32,301 nt of DNA from Oscillospiraceae bacterium. GTDB lineage: Bacteria > Bacillota > Clostridia > Oscillospirales > Oscillospiraceae. The DNA lies in contig JAJBUC010000088.1 of NCBI GenBank assembly GCA_020860545.1, positions 1 to 32,301 on the forward strand. Direction: 5' to 3'. Below are positions 3,823 through 32,108 of the stretch, one piece after another. Every line of letters starts with the position of its first letter. Position 1 is the first letter of the stretch. A program made the position numbers and the translations under genes. Under the pieces are notes generated by a model. It did not search any database. It was not told the origin of the DNA and worked only from the letters and a program-made list of their open reading frames with translations.

Positions 3823-6672
3823 TTATCCGTAGCTGAAAAGCTTCGGATTGGCGCTTGTCTCCTCAAGCGATTTCCAGTCTGGATTTTCCCTGATCCCCGT
3901 CCATTGCTCGTCCCCGTCTGTGTCCAGTTCATAATAGTGGGAGTTTGTAGCCTCCTGCACATCATAGTAGTACCACTTGGTGTGCTCCATATTGTCCGAC
4001 CATGTCACCATGCCCGTATAGAGTTCGTCGTCGCTATCCACATGGCGCTCCAGCACACGGTTGAGCAGTGTCATCACTTCGGCCCTTGTGATATACGCAT
4101 CCGGGCGGAAGGTACCGTCTTCATACCCTGTGATGTAGCCAAGCCGCGCTGCTTTTTCGATGTCCGCCTGGGCCCAGTGTCCGTCAATATCGCTGAAGGT
4201 GAGCGTACTGGTGCCGTCCTCTGTTTCAAACCGGGCCGCAAGCGTTGCAAACTCTGCCCTTGTGATATAACCAGAGGGCTGAAAGCTCCCATCTGCGTAG
4301 CCGGATAGGATCCCGCCATTGGCCATTGTGGATATGGCGTTATTGGACCAGCGCGCAGATGCAACATCGTTGAACCCGCTTGACTGTGACCAGTATTCTA
4401 TGCGCGAGTCATTCGTCAGAAGCCGGAAAAAGACGGTGGCCGCTTCCTCTCTTGTAATGTTGTTTTCAGGCCGCACGTCTTCTTCCGGGTAGCCTATGAT
4501 ATAGGAAAAATGGTTTTCTTTATCCAGCGCAGGCTGGCTGCCGCCACCGGAAGCCGATGTTGTCCATACTGCGTACAGATTCACATTCTTTGCCGGCATG
4601 GTAAAGGTATCACCGGCTGTATAGACTACAGTGCCGTCTACTTCCTCACTCCAGCCCAGAAAGGAATATCCGGTGGGTGCCGTAAAGATGCTGCCTCTTT
4701 TTACGGTAACCGTCGTCCCGGAGCTGATGCCGCTTGTCACATCGTCGTCTTCTCCCAGCGTGGTGTTCGGATGATAGGTCAATTTATAGGTGCTGCTGCC
4801 GCCACTTCCGCCGCCGCCTGTGGACGTGGACGTTTTCGTGCCGACCACCAGCGGAATGGGAAATTCCCTGTCCTGCCCGCCTTCGACAGGCATAAGCGTC
4901 GTCGTGTCGTTGGTTGGATACGCCTGTCCATACACAAACCCCGAAGCGTCCGTCTGAAGCGTCACCCTGTATGTAATGTACACTGTCTCACCGGCGCTCA
5001 GATTGAGCCCTTCCACCGTCACCGTGTCGTTGCTGAAAGCAACTGTTACCCCATCAAGCAGCGCGTCATCCGATGCGGCAAGTTTGAAGTCCGCGCCATC
5101 CTGCGCAGCTGACTCAAACTGAATAAAATCCGGCCCCATCGGGTCTGTGATGGTTCCATTTTGTATTGAGTCGGTAATCGCACCGTAGATCTGGCTGGAT
5201 AACACGTCAATCAGATCGTCTAACGCGCTGACATCAAAATACGTGCTGCCCTCGATCCCGTCACTCGATACGTTTTTCAGCACATACTCCGCCTGCGTTT
5301 TCATAGGAAAGGGTGAACCGAACGCAAACACCGGTCCCACAAAACCGGATCTGCCATCATAGGGGTGAACCGTGGTGCCGCTACTCCCAAACCTTGCGCT
5401 GAAATAACACGCCATGTTGGGGACGGAACCAATGTAATCCTCCAAATCGAAGTCTTTCGTCGTAAGCTGTACCTCAATTTCATATGTGGCCCCGGCGGGT
5501 ACCGTTTCGGTGTAGTTCACTGCGCCGGCTGCATTTCTGGTCACCATTTCGCTGTAGCTATATACCCCTGTCTCCACGCCGTCAATCGTAATTCTGCACC
5601 ATGTGTTGGCGATATCCGTATCCAGAAAATCTTCCAGGCCGGACGGCATGTTAAATACCATTGCACATGCCTTACCGGACGCGTCGGGATTGGTATAGCT
5701 TGCATAGAAATTGAGCGTCTCGTCGGGCGAAAAAATGCCATCCGCATTGGTTTCCGTCCAAAAAGCTTCTGTACTGCCATTGGTTAAAGTTGTACTCCAG
5801 GAGAAATTTCCGGTATAATACCCGGCCGCCGGCGTAGAATCAGAGAGCAGAATCCCCACAGAATATACGGTGTTTTGATCCGAGGCGGCTTTGAAATCCA
5901 GAATCTGTCCAATGGTAGCCTCACCGTGATTCGTCACCGCTTTGCCCCCAATGGTATATGCCTGGGCCGCTGTGCAATAAAACTGAGAGCCCGCGCCTAT
6001 GGTTGTACTGTAATCAAAGTCTGTAATTTTATAGCCGGAAAACAGGCCCGTGCCATAGTCCTGCACCGTATCATCCGTTACATCAGCGGCAGCCGTTGCC
6101 GCATAAGAGTAGGTGGGTACTCCATCGCTGAGCAGAATAATGATATGCTGATGGCCATCCGTGCTGTCGAACAGGCTTTCCGCCGCCAGAAGACCATCCT
6201 GCGTGAATGTCCCCTCCGTCATAGACGTCTGCGCGTTAATAAACGTAATCAGCTCTGTCTCATCATTCGTCAGCGGGAGCACATTGCCGGCCGTGTCTGC
6301 ATACCCTACCGCGCCAATTCTTACATTCTCCGTCTGGTTTAACGTCGTTTCGACGAATTCGACGGCGCTCTCCTGCAGTACCTGAAAGCGGGTGCCCGTC
6401 ATACTGTTGGATTCATCCAACACCAATACAATATCCGTCGGCGGTTCCTCCGCCTTGTTTTTCCCTGTCACTTCCAGTGTAATGTCATACTGATTTTTCG
6501 TGCCGGATACAAGCTCGGCGTACTTATTGAGTATCGCCTCGTCATATTCGACCCCTGCTTCCCCTCCAGGCTGCAGATTTTCGGTATCCGCTGCGACCAC
6601 AGAGATCTGCATGCTCCCTGCAAGCAGGGCAGCCGCTGCAACTGAACTAAATATTTTCTTCCACGTTCCCAT
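3823..6672 (-). CDS. Secreted surface protein: signal peptide, VWA domain (MIDAS DESNSMTG), InlB/Listeria-Bacteroides-type repeat, three SLH domains
   Basis: ORF 3823..6702; start moved to ATG 6672 (AAGGATGGGG RBS). Motifs: DIVLVLDESNSMTG; YSFLGWSEEVDGTVVYTAGDTFTMPAKNVNLYAVW; SLH units such as GYADGSFQPSGYITRAEFATLAARF and GYEDGTFRPDAYITRAEVMTLLNRVL. Confidence 0.88.
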   Translation of the reverse strand: MGTWKKIFSSVAAAALLAGSMQISVVAADTENLQPGGEAGVEYDEAILNKYAELVSGTKNQYDITLEVTGKNKAEEPPTDIVLVLDESNSMTGTRFQVLQESAVEFVETTLNQTENVRIGAVGYADTAGNVLPLTNDETELITFINAQTSMTEGTFTQDGLLAAESLFDSTDGHQHIIILLSDGVPTYSYAATAAADVTDDTVQDYGTGLFSGYKITDFDYSTTIGAGSQFYCTAAQAYTIGGKAVTNHGEATIGQILDFKAASDQNTVYSVGILLSDSTPAAGYYTGNFSWSTTLTNGSTEAFWTETNADGIFSPDETLNFYASYTNPDASGKACAMVFNMPSGLEDFLDTDIANTWCRITIDGVETGVYSYSEMVTRNAAGAVNYTETVPAGATYEIEVQLTTKDFDLEDYIGSVPNMACYFSARFGSSGTTVHPYDGRSGFVGPVFAFGSPFPMKTQAEYVLKNVSSDGIEGSTYFDVSALDDLIDVLSSQIYGAITDSIQNGTITDPMGPDFIQFESAAQDGADFKLAASDDALLDGVTVAFSNDTVTVEGLNLSAGETVYITYRVTLQTDASGFVYGQAYPTNDTTTLMPVEGGQDREFPIPLVVGTKTSTSTGGGGSGGSSTYKLTYHPNTTLGEDDDVTSGISSGTTVTVKRGSIFTAPTGYSFLGWSEEVDGTVVYTAGDTFTMPAKNVNLYAVWTTSASGGGSQPALDKENHFSYIIGYPEEDVRPENNITREEAATVFFRLLTNDSRIEYWSQSSGFNDVASARWSNNAISTMANGGILSGYADGSFQPSGYITRAEFATLAARFETEDGTSTLTFSDIDGHWAQADIEKAARLGYITGYEDGTFRPDAYITRAEVMTLLNRVLERHVDSDDELYTGMVTWSDNMEHTKWYYYDVQEATNSHYYELDTDGDEQWTGIRENPDWKSLEETSANPKLFSYG

Positions 6673-6813
6673 TTTTCGCCCCATCCTTTCTTGATTTGTC
6701 ACCGGTTATTACATTAACTTATCCAGTCCAGTTTTGCAATTGTCAAAACAACTAAAAATTACAAAACTCTACGTTTTTAGCACATATTTTTATATTTGTA
6801 ACCAATATTAGGT

Positions 6814-6862
6814 AAAAAAATGGGCTGGCGTGGGGTGTGCAAACACGCCCTACGCCAGCCCT
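6814..6862 (-). terminator. Rho-independent terminator downstream of rplL
   Basis: Minus strand: GGGCTGGCGT-AGGGCGTG-TTT-GCACACCCC-ACGCCAGCCC-ATTTTTTT. Confidence 0.85.
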
Positions 6863-6873
6863 TTGAACCGAAA

Positions 6874-7251
6874 TTACTTGAGCTCGACCTTTGCGCCGAC
6901 CTCTTCCAGCTTCTTCTTGAGTTCCTCGGCCTCGTCCTTCGAGACGCCTTCCTTCAGCGCCTTCGGTGCGGATTCAACCATTGCCTTCGCGTCGGCCAGA
7001 CCCAGTCCGGTGATCTCACGAACCACCTTGATGACCTTGATCTTCTCTGCGCCGGTTTCGGCCAGAACAACATCAAACTCCGTCTTCTCAGCGGCAGCGG
7101 CGGCCTCACCACCGCCAGCGGCGGCGGGCGCAGCCATAGCGGCGGCGGAAACACCGAATTCTTCCTCCAGTGCGTGCACCAGCTCGGACAGCTCCAGAAC
7201 GGTCAGCGCTTTGACTTCTTCAATCAAAGTGGCAATTTTTGTATCAGCCAT
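6874..7251 (-). CDS. rplL: 50S ribosomal protein L7/L12
   Basis: 125 aa: [33 protein letters not shown]...[39 protein letters not shown]. Confidence 0.98.
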
Positions 7252-7295
7252 GATAGTAAACCTCCTAAAATGTAGTATTTAATTCAGATAACTGC

Positions 7296-7973
7296 TTATT
7301 CAGCGGGTGTCTCTTCGGCAGGGGCATCCGTTGCGGCCTCCTCTGCCGGTGCTTCCGTCACGGCTTCCGAAGCCGGTGCTTCCTCTGCCGGTGCTTCTGC
7401 TGCCGGCTCGGCGACAGCTTCCTCTGCGGGGGCTTCGGCTGCCGGCGCTTCCTCTGCGGCCTTCTCTGCAGGTACGCCGCCCTTTTCCGCAATCGCCTTG
7501 ATGACAATGGCAAGGCTTGTGATCGGCGCAAGCATCGTACCGAGCACCTGCGCGAGGAGTACGTCCTTCGACGGCAGCGCGGCAAGCGCGGCGACATCGG
7601 CCAGAGGGAGTATTTTCCCCTCCATAAAGCCCGCCTTGATGGTAAACTTTTCGTCTCCGAGCGCTTTTGCGTACTTGCTGATGATACGCATCGGCGTCAG
7701 GGGATCCTCCGTGCTGGTCGCAAGCGACGTGGTGCCGTTGAGGATCGGGTCAAGCTCATCAAAGCCGATGTTTTTGACGGCAAAGCGCGCAAGGGTGTTC
7801 TTGATGACCGTGTACTCCACATTGTTTTCACGCAGCTCATTGCGCAGTGCAGTGTCCTCCGCAACGGTGATGCCCTGATAATCAATGAACAGACCGCTCG
7901 CGGCGGACTGCAGGCGCTCGGTCAGCGCAGCGACAAAAGCCTGCTTTTCGCTTAAAACTTTTGCGTTTGGCAT
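7296..7973 (-). CDS. rplJ: 50S ribosomal protein L10 with Ala/Glu/Pro-rich C-terminal extension
   Basis: 225 aa; canonical L10 body (SEKQAFVAALTERLQSAASGLFIDYQGITVAEDTALRNELRENNVEYTVIKNTL...) followed by a roughly 50-aa EEAPAAEAPAEEAVAEPAAEAPAEE... tail. Confidence 0.96.
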   Translation of the reverse strand: MPNAKVLSEKQAFVAALTERLQSAASGLFIDYQGITVAEDTALRNELRENNVEYTVIKNTLARFAVKNIGFDELDPILNGTTSLATSTEDPLTPMRIISKYAKALGDEKFTIKAGFMEGKILPLADVAALAALPSKDVLLAQVLGTMLAPITSLAIVIKAIAEKGGVPAEKAAEEAPAAEAPAEEAVAEPAAEAPAEEAPASEAVTEAPAEEAATDAPAEETPAE

Positions 7974-7987
7974 GTTTTACATTCACC

Positions 7988-8108
7988 TCCGGAAAAATAA
8001 AATGCTGCTTTCGCGTTCAAGACACGAAAACAGCATAAAAAATCATCACAAAATGCTGTATCCTCGGCAGGAATTACGGCGGGACTCCACCTGCTGTCTA
8101 TGAACACA
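7988..8108 (-). ncRNA. L10 (rplJ) leader: autoregulatory 5' UTR with an attenuator-type hairpin
   Basis: Minus strand has AGACAGCAGGTGG...CCTGCCGAGG (typical L10 leader core), then ATGCTGTTTTCGTG...CGCGAAAGCAGCAT-TTTATTTTT hairpin before the rplJ RBS GGAGGTG. Confidence 0.82.
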
Positions 8109-8114
8109 AAACGA

Positions 8115-8144
8115 ATTATAACACCCAACCTGGGGTGGTGTCAA
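8115..8144 (-). promoter_or_regulatory. Sigma-A-type promoter for rplJL
   Basis: Minus strand TTGACA (8144-8139), 18-nt spacer, TATAAT (8120-8115), just upstream of the L10 leader. Confidence 0.8.
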
Positions 8145-8150
8145 GCTTTT

Positions 8151-8915
8151 TTAAATCACACGGTTGCGCAGTACACCGATGCCCGCAATCTCCACCTCGA
8201 CGGTATCCCCTTTTTGCATCGGGCCAATGCCCGCGGGGGTACCGGTGGTCACCACGTCGCCCGGTTCCAGTGTCATTGCGGCGGTGATGAACGCCAGCAG
8301 CTCCGGTATTCTGGTCAGAAACTGCGCGGTGTTCCCCTGCTGCACCACGGTGCCGTTGACCCGTGTCCGGATGTCCAGTGCATGGGGGTCGACCGCATCG
8401 GTGAGCACGGGGCCGATGGGCGCAAAGCCGTCCATCGCCTTGGCGCGCGTCCACTGTCCGTCCAGATTTTGAATATCACGCGCGGTAATGTCGTTGAGGC
8501 AGGTATAGCCCAGGATATAGTCTGCAAAGTCTTTCGGCTTTACAGCCTTTGCCCTGCGGGAGATCACAAAGGCCAGTTCCCCCTCGTAGTCCAGTCTTGT
8601 GACAAAATCCGGCGCACATACCGCTCCCTCCGGGTGGTTCACTGTATTCGGCCCCTTGAGGAAGAGAATGGGGTGGTCGGGGACGTCATTGCCCAGCTCG
8701 AGCGCATGATCGCGGTAGTTTTTCCCGACACAGACGATTTTCGTCGCCTCACAGGGGGCGAGGAGGCGGCATGTATGCAGCGGCAGCGCCGCCCCGTCAT
8801 AGCGCAGCAGACCCGAAAAAGGCGGAACTGCAAGGGTGCGGACGGTTTCCCCCTCCAGCACGCCCCAGACCGGGGTATCCCCCCGTATTATTTTGACATA
8901 CCTCAAAGCGTACAC
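8151..8915 (-). CDS. Fumarylacetoacetate hydrolase family protein
   Basis: 254 aa: KIVCVGKNYRDHALELGNDVPDHPILFLKGPNTV...LDYEGELAFVISRRAK...GYTCLNDITARDIQ...GDVVTTGTPAGIG. Confidence 0.93.
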   Translation of the reverse strand: MYALRYVKIIRGDTPVWGVLEGETVRTLAVPPFSGLLRYDGAALPLHTCRLLAPCEATKIVCVGKNYRDHALELGNDVPDHPILFLKGPNTVNHPEGAVCAPDFVTRLDYEGELAFVISRRAKAVKPKDFADYILGYTCLNDITARDIQNLDGQWTRAKAMDGFAPIGPVLTDAVDPHALDIRTRVNGTVVQQGNTAQFLTRIPELLAFITAAMTLEPGDVVTTGTPAGIGPMQKGDTVEVEIAGIGVLRNRVI

Positions 8916-20762: not shown

Positions 20763-21104
20763 TTACACGCGCTCTTTGACCTTCGCCCGCTTGCCCACGC
20801 GATCACGCAGATAGTAGAGCTTCGCGCGGCGCACCTTGCCGCGGCGCACCGTCTCGACCTTCTCAACCGAAGGGGAGTGAATGGGGAACACCTTCTCCAC
20901 GCCAACCCCGTAAGAGACGCGGCGGACGGTAAATGTCTCGCCGATCCCGCCGTGCTTTTTGGCGATGACGGTGCCCTCGAACATCTGGAGACGCTCGCGT
21001 CTGCCTTCTTTTACGCGGATGTGCACGCGGACGGTGTCACCCACAGTGACGTCAGGCGCGGTTTCCTTTTGATATTTGTCCGTAAACATCTGTACCAGAT
21101 CCAT
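20763..21104 (-). CDS. rplS: 50S ribosomal protein L19
   Basis: 113 aa: [102 protein letters not shown]. Confidence 0.98.
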
Positions 21105-21240: not shown

Positions 21241-22179
21241 TCAGGACGCAATCAGGCCGTTTTCCTGTAAGAATGTCTTTGCCACCTCGTCGACACTCTT
21301 CTTAACACCGTCCACGCCCACGTCTACCTGATAACTCAGGTCAGTCATGACGTCGGTGGTCAGCCTGCCGGTGAGCATATCGAGCACCTCTTCCAGGTTA
21401 GGCGCCACATCCTGCATGCGGTCAAAGAGGTCGGCTCGCACGAGCAGCGCGCCGTTATACTCGGGGAAAAAGTTCCGGTCATCCTCCAGAAGCACCAGCT
21501 CGGCCTCCTTATTCAGTCCGTCCGTCGCGTACACCCCCGTAACATCCATGTTGCCGTTCTGGACGGCGGAATACTTCAAATTAATGTCAATCTGCTTTGC
21601 CTCCTTAAATTGCAGGCCATAGAATTCGGTCAGCGGAATATATTTTGCGCTGCCCTCCTCGGTGAAGAAGTCGTGCTCCGCGGCAAACACAAGCTGATCG
21701 GACACCGCGGCGAGGTCGCTGATGGTTTTCAGATTATATTCGTCGGCGATTGCCTGGGGAACCGCAACCTGGTAGGTGTTATTCAGCCCCAGCTTTCCGA
21801 GCAGCCGAACGCCCTCGGAAGCCGCCTCCTGATTGGCATAATCGTAGAGTGTCATGTCCTCCGGCACATCGGAGGGGTCGAGATGCAGGAAGGTGGTGAG
21901 CAGGGTGCCGTCATAGCTGTTCATGAGGTCGGCATTCCCCCGCACGATCTCGCTATAGGAGGCGGGCGGTGCCATCTCGTCCTTGATAGTCACCTTCGCG
22001 TCCGTATGTTCCTCCACCAAAAGCTTCACCATCCTGTGTATCAGCTGCATCTCGGCAAATTGTCCGTCATAGATCACAATGGTATCCTCGCTCTGTGTTC
22101 CGCTGCCACATGCAGTGAGCGTCAGGGCCAATACCCCCGCCAGCATTCCGGCCAGCCACTTTTTCATGTTTGTTTTCAT
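21241..22179 (-). CDS. Osmoprotectant (glycine betaine/carnitine/choline-type) ABC transporter substrate-binding lipoprotein
   Basis: ORF 21241..22254, preferred ATG 22179; lipobox LTLTACGSG; IYDGQFAEMQLIHRMVKLLVEEHTDAKVTIKDEM...YDGTLLTTFL...ATDGLNKEAELVLLEDDRNFFPEYNGALLVR fits the OpuCC/OpuAC type. Confidence 0.9.
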   Translation of the reverse strand: MKTNMKKWLAGMLAGVLALTLTACGSGTQSEDTIVIYDGQFAEMQLIHRMVKLLVEEHTDAKVTIKDEMAPPASYSEIVRGNADLMNSYDGTLLTTFLHLDPSDVPEDMTLYDYANQEAASEGVRLLGKLGLNNTYQVAVPQAIADEYNLKTISDLAAVSDQLVFAAEHDFFTEEGSAKYIPLTEFYGLQFKEAKQIDINLKYSAVQNGNMDVTGVYATDGLNKEAELVLLEDDRNFFPEYNGALLVRADLFDRMQDVAPNLEEVLDMLTGRLTTDVMTDLSYQVDVGVDGVKKSVDEVAKTFLQENGLIAS

Positions 22180-22811
22180 ACTTCTTCCATTCCTTTCTTT
22201 TGCTCCGGTGTGGAGCGCTTCATGCGTTGTTCTTTCATCCGTCTTTCGATCCATGCCATACCCATGTCGAAACCCACAGCCATCGCCATCAGCACGAGGG
22301 TTCCGCCTATAATCTGGGGCATGTCTCCTGTCTTGATGCCGCGGGTAATGATGCCACCCAGTCCGCCGCCGCCAACCGAGGCGGCAAATACCGCCACGCC
22401 GATCGCTGTTACCGTGGCAATTCTGATCCCCGTAAAAATAAGGGGAAAGGCAAGGGGCAGCTCCACAAGGAGCAGACGGTTACGCCTTGTCATTCCCATA
22501 CCGGTGGACACCTCCTTCAGGACAGGGTCTACCTCAGAAAGCCCCACATAGGTATTGAGTACCACGGGAAGCAGGGAGTACAGGAGCAGTCCAAGGATCA
22601 CGGTGGGCTTTCCTCCCCCCAAAAACACCATGATAATACCCAGCAGCGCCAGCACCGGAATGGTTTGCAGTACCTCCACCGCCCACAAAATGGGCTTTCG
22701 CACCAAGGGAAAGCAATAGGCACAGATACCGACGGGTACACCGACCACAATGGTACACAATACGGCCAGCACAACAATCAGCAGGTGATCAAGCACCATG
22801 GTCACTGTCAT
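22176..22811 (-). CDS. Osmoprotectant ABC transporter permease (OpuCD/OpuCB type)
   Basis: 211 aa: VGVPVGICAYCFPLVRKPILWAVEVLQTIPVLALLGIIMVFLGGGKPTVILGLLLYSLLPVVLNTYVGL. Confidence 0.9.
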   Translation of the reverse strand: MTVTMVLDHLLIVVLAVLCTIVVGVPVGICAYCFPLVRKPILWAVEVLQTIPVLALLGIIMVFLGGGKPTVILGLLLYSLLPVVLNTYVGLSEVDPVLKEVSTGMGMTRRNRLLLVELPLAFPLIFTGIRIATVTAIGVAVFAASVGGGGLGGIITRGIKTGDMPQIIGGTLVLMAMAVGFDMGMAWIERRMKEQRMKRSTPEQKKGMEEV

Positions 22812-23464
22812 GACGCATCCCTCCTCAATGACCTCGGGATGACACGGCGCCTGAGCAGTTCAATGACCCAGCTCAGGAGCATCGCCATGACCGCGGCGGG
22901 AATGGCACCTGCCAGGGTCAGCATATTGTTGTTGCTGCTGATGCCGGAATAAATCAGGTCGCCCAGCCCGCCCAGGCCGATCATCGCCGCTAAAACCGCC
23001 CAGCTCACGGTATAGACGGTGGACATGCGCAGTCCGCTGAAAATCACGGGCATAGCCAGGGGCAGCTCAATATGCCACAGCACCTGTAACGGCGACATGC
23101 CGCACCCCTGCGCCGCCTCCTTATAGTGCGCGGGCACCTCAATGAGCCCCACAAACGTATTCTTCAAAATGGGAAACACCGCGTAGGTTGCCAGCGCAAA
23201 GATGACGGTGGAGGGCACCATGCCGTTATAGAGGAAAAGCACGCCGATGAAGACAATACCGGGAATGGTCTGGAGGACGGATAAAACGGGCAGAATCACA
23301 TTGGCCCAACGCGGCATTCTGGACAGGAGAATCCCGAGCGCCAGCGCAATCACAAAAGCGATCGCCACGGAAACCAGCACATAGACCAGATGGACGCCAA
23401 ACGCGGTGACGATCCGCCGCCAATAGAGCTCCAGGAAGTGCAGTATCATACCGTATCCCCCCAA
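22808..23464 (-). CDS. Osmoprotectant ABC transporter permease (OpuCB/OpuCD type)
   Basis: 218 aa: HLVYVLVSVAIAFVIALALGILLSRMPRWANVILPVLSVLQTIPGIVFIGVLFLYNG...TYAVFPILKNTFVGLIEV. Confidence 0.9.
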   Translation of the reverse strand: MGGYGMILHFLELYWRRIVTAFGVHLVYVLVSVAIAFVIALALGILLSRMPRWANVILPVLSVLQTIPGIVFIGVLFLYNGMVPSTVIFALATYAVFPILKNTFVGLIEVPAHYKEAAQGCGMSPLQVLWHIELPLAMPVIFSGLRMSTVYTVSWAVLAAMIGLGGLGDLIYSGISSNNNMLTLAGAIPAAVMAMLLSWVIELLRRRVIPRSLRRDAS

Positions 23465-24573
23465 ACCGCGTCGGCCAGGGCTTTGGCGATGCTTGTCTTG
23501 GTGACAATCCCCGCCAGCGTGTTGTCGTGCCTGAGTACCACCACATAGTTCGCGTCTCCGCTGAGCAGCTTTTCAAAGCAGACATGCGCGTCCTCATCCA
23601 CGTAGGAGACGGGATTCGACTGGCGGAGCAGCGGTTCCACCGTTTGAATCGTACTGCCCTTCTCCATGCGGTTGATGTCCGCGATGGAGACAATACCCGC
23701 GTAAGTCTCATCCCGATTCATGACGACGAGGGTATCCACATTCCGCCTCGCCATCAGTTCCACCGATTCCCGAATTCTGGCGTCAATATATGTGGTGGAG
23801 ACGTTCTGGCGCAAAAAATCCGCCGCTGTCTGCGGCATAGCCTGCTCCGCGATGCTCCGCTTGCCCATAAAGCTGCGGATCAGATCGCTCGCCGGATGCT
23901 CCAGCATCTCACCGGGCGGTGCCATCTGCACGATTTCGCCCTGCTCCATGAAGATGATCTTGTCCGCCATATTCAGGGCCTCATTCATATCATGCGTCAC
24001 AAAAACAATCGTCTTTTTCAGTTTTTTCTGGAGGTTTCTGACCTCATCCTGAAGCGTGGCGCGCGTAACCGGATCCAACGCGCCGAAGGGCTCGTCCATC
24101 AGCACCACGGGAGGAGAGGCCGCCAGGGCCCGCAGCACGCCGATCCGCTGTTGCTGGCCGCCAGAGAGCTCATGTGGATATTTGTGCGCATACTCGTCAT
24201 AGGGCATCCCGACCATCTCCAGCAGCTCGTGCGTCCGCTCCCGCATTTTCCTCTTCTCATATTTCAGCAGATGAGGCACGACACAGATATTCTGCTCCAC
24301 GTTCATATTGGGAAACAGGCCAATTTGCTGGATCACATAGCCGATGTTCCTGCGCAGCTTCACAGGGTCGGTCGTTGCAATATCCTCGTTGCCGATGTAG
24401 ATGCGCCCCTCGTCAGGCTCAATGAGCCGGTTTATGGTCTTTAACGTTGTGGTTTTCCCGCATCCGCTGGGACCGATTAAAACCGCCAGCTCCCCCTCAT
24501 CAATATGAAAACTGATTCCTTTTAAAACCTGCTTGTCCCCATAGCTTTTTCGGACATTCTCAAAACGAATCAT
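23446..24573 (-). CDS. Osmoprotectant ABC transporter ATP-binding protein with CBS domains (OpuCA type)
   Basis: 375 aa: Walker A GPSGCGKTTTLK, signature LSGGQQQR, Walker B VVLMDEPFGALDP; C-terminal CBS-like region. Confidence 0.93.
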   Translation of the reverse strand: MIRFENVRKSYGDKQVLKGISFHIDEGELAVLIGPSGCGKTTTLKTINRLIEPDEGRIYIGNEDIATTDPVKLRRNIGYVIQQIGLFPNMNVEQNICVVPHLLKYEKRKMRERTHELLEMVGMPYDEYAHKYPHELSGGQQQRIGVLRALAASPPVVLMDEPFGALDPVTRATLQDEVRNLQKKLKKTIVFVTHDMNEALNMADKIIFMEQGEIVQMAPPGEMLEHPASDLIRSFMGKRSIAEQAMPQTAADFLRQNVSTTYIDARIRESVELMARRNVDTLVVMNRDETYAGIVSIADINRMEKGSTIQTVEPLLRQSNPVSYVDEDAHVCFEKLLSGDANYVVVLRHDNTLAGIVTKTSIAKALADAVWGDTV

Positions 24574-24650
24574 CTCCCGCTCCTTTCCTGTGCCCTAAAA
24601 TAGAATTCCACCTCCAAAGAGAATTCTGCGCACGATATTATATATCTTCT

Positions 24651-24679
24651 ATTATAGGAAATGATGGGCTCAGAGTCAA
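24651..24679 (-). promoter_or_regulatory. Sigma-A-type promoter for the opuC-like operon
   Basis: Minus strand TTGACT, 17-nt spacer, TATAAT. Confidence 0.8.
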
Positions 24680-24784
24680 GCCATATATCCCCATTTTGAG
24701 CAGATGTGCACACAAATTATCGTCCCTTTATACAAATAATTATGTATACATCGTAACAAGACTGTTCCTTTTTACAATTTTCTC

Positions 24785-24813
24785 TTCACAAACACGCCAT
24801 TATGTGTTAGAAT
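24785..24813 (+). promoter_or_regulatory. Sigma-A-type promoter for the acyltransferase gene
   Basis: TTCACA, 17-nt spacer, TAGAAT. Confidence 0.7.
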
Positions 24814-24867
24814 AAAAATAGTCTGCCTTTCTACATCGGCGCGATGATATCCTTCAGGAGGAATGCA

Positions 24868-26604
24868 ATGAACTCTTATGAACATGATCCCCATTTGCCG
24901 CGTCTCCCAGTCCCTACGCTGGACGAGACCGCCGATGAACTGAAGAAGCGGATGAAGCCCATTGTATGTGAGGCGGATTTTTCCGCCCTCTGTAGGGCGC
25001 TGGAACGCTTCTGTGCGCCGGATGGGGAGGGGCCTGTCCTGCAGGAACGTCTGCTCGCCTTTCAGCATGCCCTGCGGGGTAACAGCAGCTGGCTGCGTCC
25101 GCTCTGGGATGATCAATATTTAGCTTATCAGTCATCCCTGCCGCGCAATATGCACTACACCCTGCAGCTGCGCGCTGAAAAATACGCGCCGAACGCGCTG
25201 CCCCATTTTACCGCCGCCATGGCGTGCACCATTCAAAGGATCCGTTGGGAGCATGTCCCCCCGGAGATGGCGGGTGGGGCTTATACCAGCATGGATACCA
25301 TGGGCGGCATGTTTTATACCCGTATTCCCGCACCCCAGCGCGACGTGTTGTACTACCCACGCCTGACGGATCCTCTGACGGCGGCGGTGGTCTGCCGGGG
25401 CCATTGGTTCATTCTCTCCCTTACGGACGATGCGGGCATCGTCCACTCTCCCGACACACTGCAAACGGCCTTTCAACTCATCCGGGAACAGGCAGCCGCA
25501 CTGTCGGCCGCTCCCGGCGTCGGTGCCTTTACCTGTGCCGACCGCGCGGAGGCGCTTGCGCTGCGCGGTGCCCTGTCTCATCACCTGCTCAACCGCCTGA
25601 GTCTGGAGAGCGTGGAAAAGGCGGTTTTTGCCGTCTGTCTGGATGAGGATGGCGCGGGAGAGGTCCCGTTTGGGCATAGCGTTCTGGCGGGCGACGCATC
25701 CAACCGCTGGTTTGATAAGTCACTTCAGCTCATTTCCTCTGGAGAGCGCCTCGGTGCCAGCCTGGAGCACGCCGGCTGTGACGGGATTATGTTCGCCTAT
25801 ATCCTCGGACAGGCCGACCAGGGGCTTTTAGACTATTCCTTCCGGTATTCTGAGGATACGTCTCCCGCCCATGTTCGTCCGCTCGATTGGTTTGTGCCCG
25901 CGCCGGTTGCCGCCAAACTGGGTGAAGTCCAGGCGGCCTTCGCAGCCTGGAACGCCTCTATATGCTTTGATGAGACGCGCATTGCCGCCCTGTCGAAAGC
26001 GACGCTCAAGCAGCTGCGGTGCAGCCCTGACGCCGTCGTACAGCTTCTGCTCCAGACGGCCTACTACCGCTGTGCCGGCAAGCTCCCCTCTGTATATGAG
26101 GCGGTGTCCACCCGGAGGTTTTACGCGGGCCGCACGGAGGGAATCCGCAGTGCGACGGAGGAATCCCTGTCCTTTATTGAGGCCTTTTGCACCGGGCAGC
26201 CCAACGCCGTGGTCGAAGCGCGTTTTCGGGCGGCGGTAGCCGTCCACAGTGAAAATACGGCACGGTGCAAGGCCGGCCTGGGCTGTGAGCGCCATATGAC
26301 GGGGCTTTCCTGTATGCATCAGATGTATTTCCCCGAAAAGGAACTCCCGGCCGTATTTCAGACGGCCGCTTACCGGACGCTGAAGTACGACACGCTTTCC
26401 ACGAGCAGTATCCCCGGCTCCGCCGTGGACTACTTTGCGTTCGTCCCCGTGGTGCAGGATGGGCTCGGTGTGGGCTACGCCCTGTATGACAGCGGCCTGC
26501 ATGTGTCCGTCTCCTCCTACGCAGAGAGCGGCATCCGCCCCAGCGACTTTCTTCTCGCCTTAGAGGATGCCGGATGCAAGCTGCTTGCGCTGGCAGGGCT
26601 GTAA
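24868..26604 (+). CDS. Choline/carnitine O-acyltransferase family protein
   Basis: ORF 24844..26604, start ATG 24868 after AGGAGG. LPRLPVPTLDETADELKKRMKPIV (N-terminal signature); NRWFDKSLQLI...LEHAGCDG (catalytic His codon 25768-25770, cf. EHAAAEG in animal CrAT); SPDAVVQLLLQTAYYRCAGKLPSVYEAVSTRRFYAGRTEGIRSAT; CERHMTGL; LSTSSIPG (STS); FVPVVQDGLGVGYALYDSGLHVSVSSYAES. Confidence 0.93.
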   Translation: MNSYEHDPHLPRLPVPTLDETADELKKRMKPIVCEADFSALCRALERFCAPDGEGPVLQERLLAFQHALRGNSSWLRPLWDDQYLAYQSSLPRNMHYTLQLRAEKYAPNALPHFTAAMACTIQRIRWEHVPPEMAGGAYTSMDTMGGMFYTRIPAPQRDVLYYPRLTDPLTAAVVCRGHWFILSLTDDAGIVHSPDTLQTAFQLIREQAAALSAAPGVGAFTCADRAEALALRGALSHHLLNRLSLESVEKAVFAVCLDEDGAGEVPFGHSVLAGDASNRWFDKSLQLISSGERLGASLEHAGCDGIMFAYILGQADQGLLDYSFRYSEDTSPAHVRPLDWFVPAPVAAKLGEVQAAFAAWNASICFDETRIAALSKATLKQLRCSPDAVVQLLLQTAYYRCAGKLPSVYEAVSTRRFYAGRTEGIRSATEESLSFIEAFCTGQPNAVVEARFRAAVAVHSENTARCKAGLGCERHMTGLSCMHQMYFPEKELPAVFQTAAYRTLKYDTLSTSSIPGSAVDYFAFVPVVQDGLGVGYALYDSGLHVSVSSYAESGIRPSDFLLALEDAGCKLLALAGL

Positions 26605-29192: not shown

Positions 29193-32108
29193 ATGCAAAT
29201 CAATTTACGAAAGCGTATTCCCGCATTTTTGCTTGTTTGCGCGTTGATATGTTCCCTTGCACCGTCTGTCTTTGCAGCCATTACGCTGGATACATCAGTT
29301 ACCGTAGTCGCGGGCGAGACAGTACAGCTTACCTGCAGCGACTCCGCTGCAACCTTTGAAAGTACGGATACAACGGTTGCCACAGTGGATTCCACCGGCC
29401 TTGTAACCGGCAAAAGTGCCGGCACCGCTACCATCACGGCAACCGCCTCCGACGGTAGCGCCGACACCGCCACATGCGCGGTCACAGTCACGGCAGCGCA
29501 GGAGACGACAACCCCCGCCATTTCCCTGAACGCTTCCACCCTCTCCCTCACTGCGGGCAGTACCTCCACGCTTACGGCGACGGTAACGCCCTCGGGCCAG
29601 AGCGTTACATGGACGAGTGACACGGAATCGGTCGCAACCGTTTCCAGCAGCGGCAAAGTTACGGCGGTCGCTGCAGGCTCGGCAGTCATTACCGCGACGA
29701 TTACGGTGGATGGTACCGACTATTCCGCGACCTGTACTGTGACGGTCACCGCCGCATCCACCTCTACATCCACCACCCTGTCCACCATCTCCTACACCGT
29801 GGAGGCGGGGGATTATGTCACCTTCAACAAATCAAATTTCTATAACGCGGTGAGTAGTCTTTCCAGCAGCACATTGAATTATATCAAGATCTCGTCGTTA
29901 CCCTCCTCCAGCAGAGGCACACTCTACTACGACTATGATGACGGCGATTACGACAGTGACGTCGATACCTCCACCAAGTATTACTACAGCACCAGCCAGA
30001 GCTATAACATTTCCGGTATCTCCTTTGTGGCTTCCTCCTCCTACAGCGGAAGCTTCACCATCAGCTACACCGCCGTTGACACGGCGGGGACGTCGTTTAC
30101 CGGCTCCATCAAAATCACGGTGGAGGAGGGCGACTCCTTCACCTATTCCACAGATCAGGATGAGCCGCTCACCTTCGACGCATCCGACTTTAACAGCTAC
30201 TGCAAGGATCAGACCGGCTACAATGTCAATTATATTACCTTCACGCTGCCCTCCTCGTCATACGGTGTGCTCTACTACGACTACGACGACGGCGATTATG
30301 ACAGCAAGGTAACCGCCTCCACCAAATATTACCGCTCTGATGACCCGTCCATTGACGATGTGACTTTTGTGCCCAAAAGCAGCTATACCGGCACCTTCAC
30401 CCTCAGCTTCAGCGGAAAGACGACCAACAGCACCTCCTTTTCCGGCTCGGTGAAGATCACTGTCGGCGCTTCGGATGAAATTACCTACTCCATTGATGAA
30501 GACGAGGCGCTGACCTTTGACCTTTCCGACTTCACCTCATACAGCAACAACGCGGTCGGCGGGACGCTAAGCTATGTCCAGTTCACCCTGCCGGGCTCCT
30601 CAAAGGGTACCCTTTATTACAAGTATGACGACGGAGACTATGACAGCAAGGTGTCCGCCTCCACGAAATACTACCGTTCGTCCTCCCCGAAAATCGGCGA
30701 CGTGACGTTTGTCCCAGCGAGCGGCTACACCGGCACCGTCTCCATCTCCTTCTCCGGGGAAAATACGTCAGGCGACAGCTTTGACGGTACGATTAAAATC
30801 AGCGTTGATGACGACGACAGCAGCAGCGGCGACGTCACCTATACGGCCAAGAAAGACGTGGTTGTCACCCTTTCGGCCAGCGATTTTAACGATTACTGTA
30901 AGGACGATACCGGCAGCAACCTCAACTATATTACCTTCAGCTCCCTGCCGAGCTCTTCCTACGGCAAGCTCTACTATGAGTACGATGAGGACAGCGGCGA
31001 CTATGACAGCGCCGTGAGCACGTCCAAGAAATACTACCGCTCCTCCTCGCCCTATATTGACGACATCAGCTTCGTACCCAAAAGCGGTTACACCGGGACG
31101 GTCTCCATCAAGTTCTCCGGCGTATCCACCGGCGGCGATAGCTTTTCCGGCACGATGAAGATTACCTACTCCTCTTCGTCGTCCTCTTCCTCTTCCTCGT
31201 CTTCGTCCTCGTCCTCCAGCAGCAGTACCACCGTCACCTATTACACCAGCTATGCGCCGATCTCCTTCCTCCAGTCCGACTTCCAGAGCATCTGCACCGC
31301 GCAGAACAGCTCCACCCTCTCTTCCATCGAGTTCAGCACCCTGCCCTCCTCCGCTGCGGGCAAGCTCTATGTGGGCTATGCAAGCCCCTCCTCCACCGGC
31401 ACGGCGGTCACGACAGGGGTATCCTACAGCGCATCCAACATCTCCGGTATCGTCTTTGTCCCCAAGGCGGAGTACACCGGGACGATCACCATGACCTACA
31501 CCGGCACCGATACTAAAGACGACACCTATACCGCCTATGTGACCATCAACGTCACCGCCGCCACTTCCTCCGCGGTATTTAGCGATATGGGGAGCTACGC
31601 ATGGGCGGCAGGCTCCGTGGACTATATCTACACCTATGACATCACAACAGGTACCACCAGCACAACCTATAACCCCGCCGGGAATATCACGCGCGGCGAC
31701 TTTATCCTCATGCTCTACCGCGCCTTTAACCTGCAGGGGGACAGCTCCTCAAACTTCCCGGACGTACCCGCCGACAGTTATTACGCGACGGCCATTGGTG
31801 TCGCTAAGGATCTCGGCATCGCCCAGGGGAGCGACGGATACTTCCGCCCCACAGACGCCCTGACGCGCGAGGATGCGTTGGTTTTGATTCTGCGCACCAT
31901 GCAGCAGAGCGGATACAGCATCAGCACCGCGACCTCCCTGAGTGACTACACCGACGCCTCTGCCGTATCGAGCTATGCCATTGAGGCCTGCGCAACCCTC
32001 TCTCAGGCGGGCGTGATCAAAGGGGACAGCGCCGGAAACCTCAATCCGAAAAATTCCCTGACCCGCGCGGAAATGGCCGTCATCCTCCATCGAGCGCTGA
32101 CATTATAA
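29193..32108 (+). CDS. Surface protein: signal peptide, two Big2-like Ig domains, five tandem ~105-aa repeats, poly-Ser tract, SLH domains
   Basis: Big2 features (TVVAGETVQLTCSDSAATFESTDTTVATVDSTGLVTGKSAGTATITAT); repeat core LPSSSxGTLYYDYDDGDYDSxVxxSTKYYRS; SLH units at the C-terminus. Confidence 0.92.
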   Translation: MQINLRKRIPAFLLVCALICSLAPSVFAAITLDTSVTVVAGETVQLTCSDSAATFESTDTTVATVDSTGLVTGKSAGTATITATASDGSADTATCAVTVTAAQETTTPAISLNASTLSLTAGSTSTLTATVTPSGQSVTWTSDTESVATVSSSGKVTAVAAGSAVITATITVDGTDYSATCTVTVTAASTSTSTTLSTISYTVEAGDYVTFNKSNFYNAVSSLSSSTLNYIKISSLPSSSRGTLYYDYDDGDYDSDVDTSTKYYYSTSQSYNISGISFVASSSYSGSFTISYTAVDTAGTSFTGSIKITVEEGDSFTYSTDQDEPLTFDASDFNSYCKDQTGYNVNYITFTLPSSSYGVLYYDYDDGDYDSKVTASTKYYRSDDPSIDDVTFVPKSSYTGTFTLSFSGKTTNSTSFSGSVKITVGASDEITYSIDEDEALTFDLSDFTSYSNNAVGGTLSYVQFTLPGSSKGTLYYKYDDGDYDSKVSASTKYYRSSSPKIGDVTFVPASGYTGTVSISFSGENTSGDSFDGTIKISVDDDDSSSGDVTYTAKKDVVVTLSASDFNDYCKDDTGSNLNYITFSSLPSSSYGKLYYEYDEDSGDYDSAVSTSKKYYRSSSPYIDDISFVPKSGYTGTVSIKFSGVSTGGDSFSGTMKITYSSSSSSSSSSSSSSSSSSSTTVTYYTSYAPISFLQSDFQSICTAQNSSTLSSIEFSTLPSSAAGKLYVGYASPSSTGTAVTTGVSYSASNISGIVFVPKAEYTGTITMTYTGTDTKDDTYTAYVTINVTAATSSAVFSDMGSYAWAAGSVDYIYTYDITTGTTSTTYNPAGNITRGDFILMLYRAFNLQGDSSSNFPDVPADSYYATAIGVAKDLGIAQGSDGYFRPTDALTREDALVLILRTMQQSGYSISTATSLSDYTDASAVSSYAIEACATLSQAGVIKGDSAGNLNPKNSLTRAEMAVILHRALTL
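29781..31560 (+). repeat. Five tandem protein-coding repeats of ~105-115 aa, boundaries approximate (29781-30137, 30138-30479, 30480-30833, 30834-31170, 31228-31560)
   Basis: Recurrent xTYSxDxDExLTFxxSDFxxYxxxxxGxxLxYIxFxxLPSSSxGxLYYxYDDGDYDSxVxxSTKYYRSxxPxIDDVTFVPKSxYTGTxxISFSGxxTxGxSFSGxIKITV; the fifth copy is degenerate. Confidence 0.85.

Follow-up and report, generated by a model that had tools for sequence, protein, structure and literature searches.

Why does a bacterium of the family Oscillospiraceae carry a full-length relative of the carnitine acyltransferases, textbook eukaryotic enzymes, directly beside an OpuC-type importer? The stretch of DNA that raises this question, hereafter the window, comprises 32,301 nucleotides of contig JAJBUC010000088.1 (assembly GCA_020860545.1), and five of its genes concern us here. 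Profile searches against Pfam and NCBIfam name them as four importer genes on the minus strand and a choline/carnitine O-acyltransferase on the plus strand. An initial annotation of the sequence had described an ATPase-permease-permease-binding lipoprotein operon lying head-to-head with the acyltransferase, and this layout was borne out, with all frames open and intact. We consider it reasonably probable that the five genes form an uptake-plus-transacylation module for carnitine or short acylcarnitines, in which acyl groups are exchanged with coenzyme A (CoA).

The association of importer and acyltransferase extends far beyond the window. In the one congener examined (G001, locus L004) the head-to-head arrangement is identical and intact. 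Two peptide patterns, of a kind that divergent members escape, were run against 84,980 species genomes and returned 36 acyltransferase loci from Bacillota, Planctomycetota, Pseudomonadota, Campylobacterota, Actinomycetota, Myxococcota and other phyla. An OpuAC gene lies within ~5 kb of the acyltransferase in 10 of the 35 other carrier genomes, against 0.27 expected; a crude Poisson-binomial calculation from per-genome OpuAC counts gives p ~3e-14, or ~5e-9 when collapsed to seven lineages, values that ignore conserved operon structure and sampling and that indicate an excess far above chance rather than an exact probability.

Beyond the congener, importer and enzyme are neighbours in at least six more lineages, in several arrangements. 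In the complete co-directional cases the importer runs into the enzyme gene across a gap of ~6-60 bp: ~25 bp from the stop codon of the substrate-binding protein (SBP) gene to the enzyme start in a member of the Planctomycetaceae (L017), ~6 bp behind the OpuC operon of Tindallia (L036) and ~60 bp in a Clostridiaceae bin (L024), where a second acyltransferase gene faces the first. The importer likewise adjoins the enzyme in Planctomycetaceae L022/L093; in the Planctomycetaceae bin MI.B8_8 a contig end splits the pair, the SBP gene being followed by the N-terminus of the acyltransferase. Arcobacteraceae (L026, L028, L030) have an OpuAC protein next to the enzyme in other orientations, with ProVW-like genes in two of the three. 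In Anaerophilus (L031) a solitary OpuAC protein is encoded 60 bp upstream of it, and in an actinobacterial bin (L037) the stretch with the enzyme also holds ProXV-like genes together with genes for a betaine-homocysteine methyltransferase and a DAO/GCV_T oxidoreductase. Loss of the adjacency in close relatives would have refuted the initial annotation; the pair is instead kept in the congener and its adjacency recurs far above chance, so that a functional link between importer and acyltransferase, as that annotation had suggested, is well supported. The substrate it had suggested for the importer did not find the same backing in the sequence: the SBP belongs to a divergent subfamily that lacks the Lys and Arg discussed below, and this transporter subfamily also occurs in relatives without the acyltransferase.

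What, then, does the enzyme act on? The acyltransferase (24868..26604, plus strand, 578 aa) matches PF00755 over its full length (E 8e-115; 385 bits against a cut-off of 22.3; positions 1-561 of 574), and its sequence relatives in the PDB are CPT2, choline acetyltransferase, carnitine acetyltransferase (CrAT) and carnitine octanoyltransferase. An AlphaFold model built from 24 bacterial relatives (predicted local distance difference test, pLDDT, 94.3; predicted template-modelling score, pTM, 0.92) replaced an earlier one built from 6 sequences, in which the pLDDT was 77 and the catalytic loop poor. The best solved match of the new model is human CrAT (1nm8; TM 0.92, root-mean-square deviation 2.4 Å). 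In an alignment to mouse CrAT, the equivalents of His343, Tyr452, Thr465, Arg518 and Ser552-Thr553-Ser554 (STS) are kept, and Asp466 is replaced by Glu. Arg518 and Thr465 of CrAT hold the carnitine carboxylate, and choline acetyltransferase has Asn at the Arg518 position; both carnitine-type residues are present in the window enzyme and in most of its bacterial relatives. The residue equivalent to Met564 is Phe. We treat this position as the chain-length gate because the PDB holds structures of M564G CrAT, one of them with hexanoylcarnitine, and the bulky Phe leads us to predict a short-chain carnitine acyltransferase. With mitochondrial and peroxisomal CrAT (1nm8, 2h3p) the enzyme thus shares its predicted fold (TM 0.92), catalytic His, STS motif, carnitine Arg, full length and a bulky gate residue; it differs in being bacterial, with ~25% identity, Phe for the gate Met, Ala for Ser454, no organelle to shuttle across and an importer adjoining. 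Its start is better placed at 24868 than at 24844, eight residues fewer, since a ribosome-binding site, AGGAGG, lies at 24856..24861 (plus strand; GGAGG is kept in the congener) and homologues begin with MNSYEHD.

Substrate preferences may vary elsewhere in the family. One alphaproteobacterial branch of PF00755 (L038-L043 except L040), whose members are ~640 aa long and have conserved neighbours, carries Gln for the carnitine Arg and Asn for the first Ser of STS, and probably acts on another substrate. In the Clostridiaceae bin, the two acyltransferases beside the OpuC operon lie tail to tail (L024:4921-6660, plus, and 6745-8469, minus); the gate Phe of one and the Ala-Gly-Tyr at 564-566 of the other suggest that they handle short and longer chains, respectively. 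The enzyme of Anaerophilus nitritogenes (L031:3902-6745) has Gly for the carnitine Arg and Ile for Thr465, its upstream SBP weakly matches a choline-binding family, and it possibly uses a different acceptor alcohol; a second Anaerophilus acyltransferase (L023:5331-11737) ends a run of genes that resemble, by eye, shikimate-pathway enzymes.

The importer has the make-up of an OpuC/ProU-type system in one operon. It comprises an OpuCA/ProV-type ATPase with a CBS domain (23446..24573, minus strand, 375 aa; PF00005 and PF00571; TIGR01186 proV, 364.6 bits against a cut-off of 326.6), two binding-protein-dependent permeases, both matching PF00528 (permease 1, 22808..23464, minus, 218 aa, for which the closest NCBIfam model is ProW, below cut-off; permease 2, 22176..22811, minus, 211 aa), and a substrate-binding lipoprotein with an OpuAC domain (21241..22179, minus, ~312 aa; PF04069, E 1.5e-39). 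The lipoprotein most likely starts at 22179, with the sequence MKTNMKKW...LTAC including the lipobox and an ATGA overlap with the permease stop; the listed open reading frame extends to 22254. Downstream of the operon lies rplS (20763-21104).

The SBP has EgtUC, OpuCC/OpuBC and ProX as its relatives in the PDB, engineered acetylcholine-sensor proteins among them, and represents a subfamily of OpuC/ProX with the signature S-Y-D-G-T where E-Y-T-G-T is usual. Its four-Tyr aromatic cage, of the OpuC/ProX type (cluster F-III), is kept at the equivalents of ProX positions 63, 111, 190 and 214, as is Thr66, whereas ProX Lys13 has become Gly and Arg149 has become Glu, the Arg149 column lying in a variable loop where the alignment is less sure. 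With the cage and Thr66 kept and Lys13 and Arg149 replaced, the pocket fits a trimethylammonium ligand without naming which. Two more specific assignments were rejected. An EgtU-type importer of ergothioneine is ruled out by the residues, Tyr standing for Phe at the Y63 position and Gly and Glu for Lys242 and Arg379. Choline-specific OpuBC has, in its wild-type form, a diagnostic Asp at the Thr66 position (RYTGD), where OpuCC and the OpuBC variant 6eyg have Thr; in the window SBP the Asp is missing and Thr is kept. EgtU and the ProX of A. fulgidus are nevertheless among the nearest solved SBPs by sequence and share the aromatic cage, but the window SBP lacks their carboxylate-holding Lys242/Lys13 and Arg379/Arg149. 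Bacillus subtilis OpuC is similar in its ProV-type CBS ATPase, two permeases, OpuAC SBP, four-Tyr cage and Thr at the OpuCC/OpuBC switch position; the window SBP differs from it in having SYDGT rather than RYSGT and Gly at the Lys13 position (Gln in OpuCC), and its gene is the last in the operon. We know of no acyltransferase partner of B. subtilis OpuC.

The SBP tree includes a supported clade of 8 (100/98), all from acyltransferase-bearing genomes, four of which (G966, G967, G971, G984) have importer and enzyme unlinked. In a 399-genome sample of the phylum, an SBP this close to that of the window occurs only in the source genome (G000) and in G934, both of which carry the acyltransferase. 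Several findings nonetheless weigh against a module dedicated to carnitine. Without Lys13 and Arg149, and with an Asp added beside the cage, the SBP is a poorer fit for a carboxylated ligand, a loss tempered by the kept Thr66. Sampling for the clade of 8 drew mainly on genomes that carry the acyltransferase and on one family, and 13 of the sampled family members have SBPs of the wider SYDGT group but no acyltransferase. No such importer was found in the genomes of L013, L014 and L018, which belong to the enzyme clade of the window. Finally, the approximately unbiased test rejected a common origin for the six OpuC-linked SBPs (p 0.017), those of Tindallia and the Clostridiaceae bin standing apart. 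The shared arrangement therefore does not go back simply to one inherited module, and since the six SBPs fall into more than one clade, linkage has probably arisen or been lost on more than one occasion.

One rival view is that the importer is an ordinary osmoprotectant system of the betaine/choline type, that the acyltransferase obtains its substrate otherwise and that the head-to-head arrangement in this genus reflects the chance insertion of a transferred gene. The more distant SYDGT importers of the many family members without the enzyme often stand behind a GntR-type regulator, CBS-domain ATPases are known osmosensors, and the importer is the sole OpuAC system found in the genome, so that it may serve osmoprotection too. 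A chance insertion, however, sits badly with adjacency in at least seven lineages, in varied orientations and even with different importer types, and with nearest SBPs that all come from acyltransferase-bearing genomes; we regard this account as unlikely. Still less probable, in our judgement, is a choline acyltransferase paired with a choline or acetylcholine importer. Such a pairing would suit the absence of the carboxylate-binding Lys and Arg from the SBP, its added Asp and its kinship to acetylcholine sensors, and the Anaerophilus L031 enzyme, devoid of the carnitine Arg and next to an SBP that weakly matches a choline-binding family, offers a possible parallel. The window enzyme itself, however, has the carnitine-type equivalents of Arg518, Thr465 and Glu466, and its SBP retains Thr66 rather than the Asp of choline-specific OpuBC.

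A third alternative keeps carnitine as the substrate and reverses the reaction: imported carnitine would receive an acyl group, giving for instance acetylcarnitine, and this would yield an osmolyte or provide a sink for acyl-CoA, releasing CoA when fermentation overflows. Known members of the family catalyse a reversible reaction, and the bulky acyl gate would favour acetyl or other short groups. In the source metagenome-assembled genome (1.98 Mb, 77% complete, with a single PF00755 gene) and in the congener we found no CaiB-type CoA-transferase or MttB-type demethylase, no BCCT carrier and no second OpuAC system, each having one OpuAC protein. Carnitine degradation by CaiB-type or MttB-type enzymes thus found no candidate genes in the genus, within the limits of a genome that is 77% complete, and imported carnitine would therefore be kept rather than degraded. 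An importer acts inward, however, and an exported acylated product would require another carrier; the pta-ackA genes that are co-operonic with the acyltransferase in Oceanirhabdus, described below, are compatible with both directions. Judged from sequence, use as a CoA buffer appears nearly as possible as salvage; as the explanation of the locus we hold the reverse direction to be possible, if somewhat unlikely.

Under the uptake-plus-transacylation reading, the OpuC-type ATP-binding cassette importer would bring in a trimethylammonium compound, for which carnitine and/or short-chain acylcarnitines are the likeliest candidates, and the cytoplasmic acyltransferase would swap the short acyl group between carnitine and CoA (acylcarnitine + CoA <-> acyl-CoA + carnitine). 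On balance the reaction would most likely run from imported acylcarnitine to acyl-CoA, saving the thioester, while free carnitine could stay as an osmolyte or take up excess acyl-CoA. OpuC of B. subtilis imports acetylcarnitine and carnitine, and de novo carnitine synthesis in bacteria is unconfirmed (PMC5979481). In the caiX-cdhCAB-hocS operon of Pseudomonas aeruginosa, a carnitine-binding protein gene is likewise paired with an enzyme that deacylates short acylcarnitines (PMC5806209), but this enzyme, HocS, works by hydrolysis and so wastes the acyl bond, whereas the window has a CoA-dependent transferase and lacks carnitine-to-betaine genes alongside.

The initial annotation had offered CoA buffering, the making of acylated osmolytes and acylcarnitine salvage as roles. 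Neighbouring genes at other loci lean towards a role in acyl-CoA and energy metabolism. In Oceanirhabdus sp. (L019:7764-16006), pta, ackA and the acyltransferase follow each other in a row, accompanied by an AraC-type gene and, ~3 kb off, two BCCT carriers, with no OpuAC gene near the acyltransferase; here pta-ackA could convert the resulting acyl-CoA to acetate and ATP. In a member of the Syntrophomonadaceae (L025:2481-3806), the acyltransferase neighbour resembles a butyryl-CoA:acetate CoA-transferase (TIGR03948, below cut-off).

Within the window, the 294 bp that separate the starts of the ATPase and acyltransferase genes hold two outward-facing promoter-like sites. That of the importer operon (TTGACT-17-TATAAT, 24651..24679, minus) is one of two exact matches to TTGACW-N(15-19)-TATAAT in the 32 kb, against 0 expected from shuffled sequences; that of the acyltransferase (TTCACA-17-TAGAAT with an extended TG, 24785..24813, plus) is weaker. 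Importer and enzyme may be co-regulated. Farther off, the window encodes two large proteins of surface type that carry S-layer homology domains, combined with VWA and pilin-tip-like Ig domains in the first (3823-6702, minus) and with Big_2 repeats in the second (29193-32108, plus).

How did such an enzyme come to be in these bacteria? PF00755 is very rare in bacteria: it turned up in 3 of 301 genomes sampled from the window's GTDB family, in a single genome, the window's own, among 295 sampled from the order, in 4 of 399 sampled from the phylum and in 0 of 14 control genomes. In the enzyme tree, the window sequence falls into a fully supported clade of ten that unites Bacillota, Planctomycetaceae, a Coriobacteriia bin and an Alphaproteobacteria bin, and this mixture of phyla points to movement of the acyltransferase between lineages. 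Several bins of the clade bear sample codes (Lab288, Nt197, Emb289) that are found in papers on higher-termite gut metagenomes.

The enzyme and importer families were known before; in the open literature, subscription papers not being covered, we found no described bacterial carnitine acyltransferase or importer-acyltransferase module, nor a description of the recurrent bacterial pairing or its SYDGT companion. Our analysis also marks out an uncharacterised subfamily of importer proteins whose partner genes allow a guess at the ligand. Tentatively, as a plausible idea that we would not yet call probable, we propose that some bacteria run a eukaryote-like carnitine system, in which a dedicated importer subfamily and a short-chain acyltransferase turn host or dietary acylcarnitine into acyl-CoA, or use imported carnitine to buffer CoA, and which was assembled several times and spread between phyla of animal guts and anaerobic habitats. 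The bacterial users of acylcarnitines in the literature covered hydrolyse the ester, by HocS or by esterases, while an importer-tied bacterial transferase would keep the acyl bond as acyl-CoA. If this is true, gut bacteria would gain direct use of host and dietary acylcarnitines, or a means of CoA buffering.

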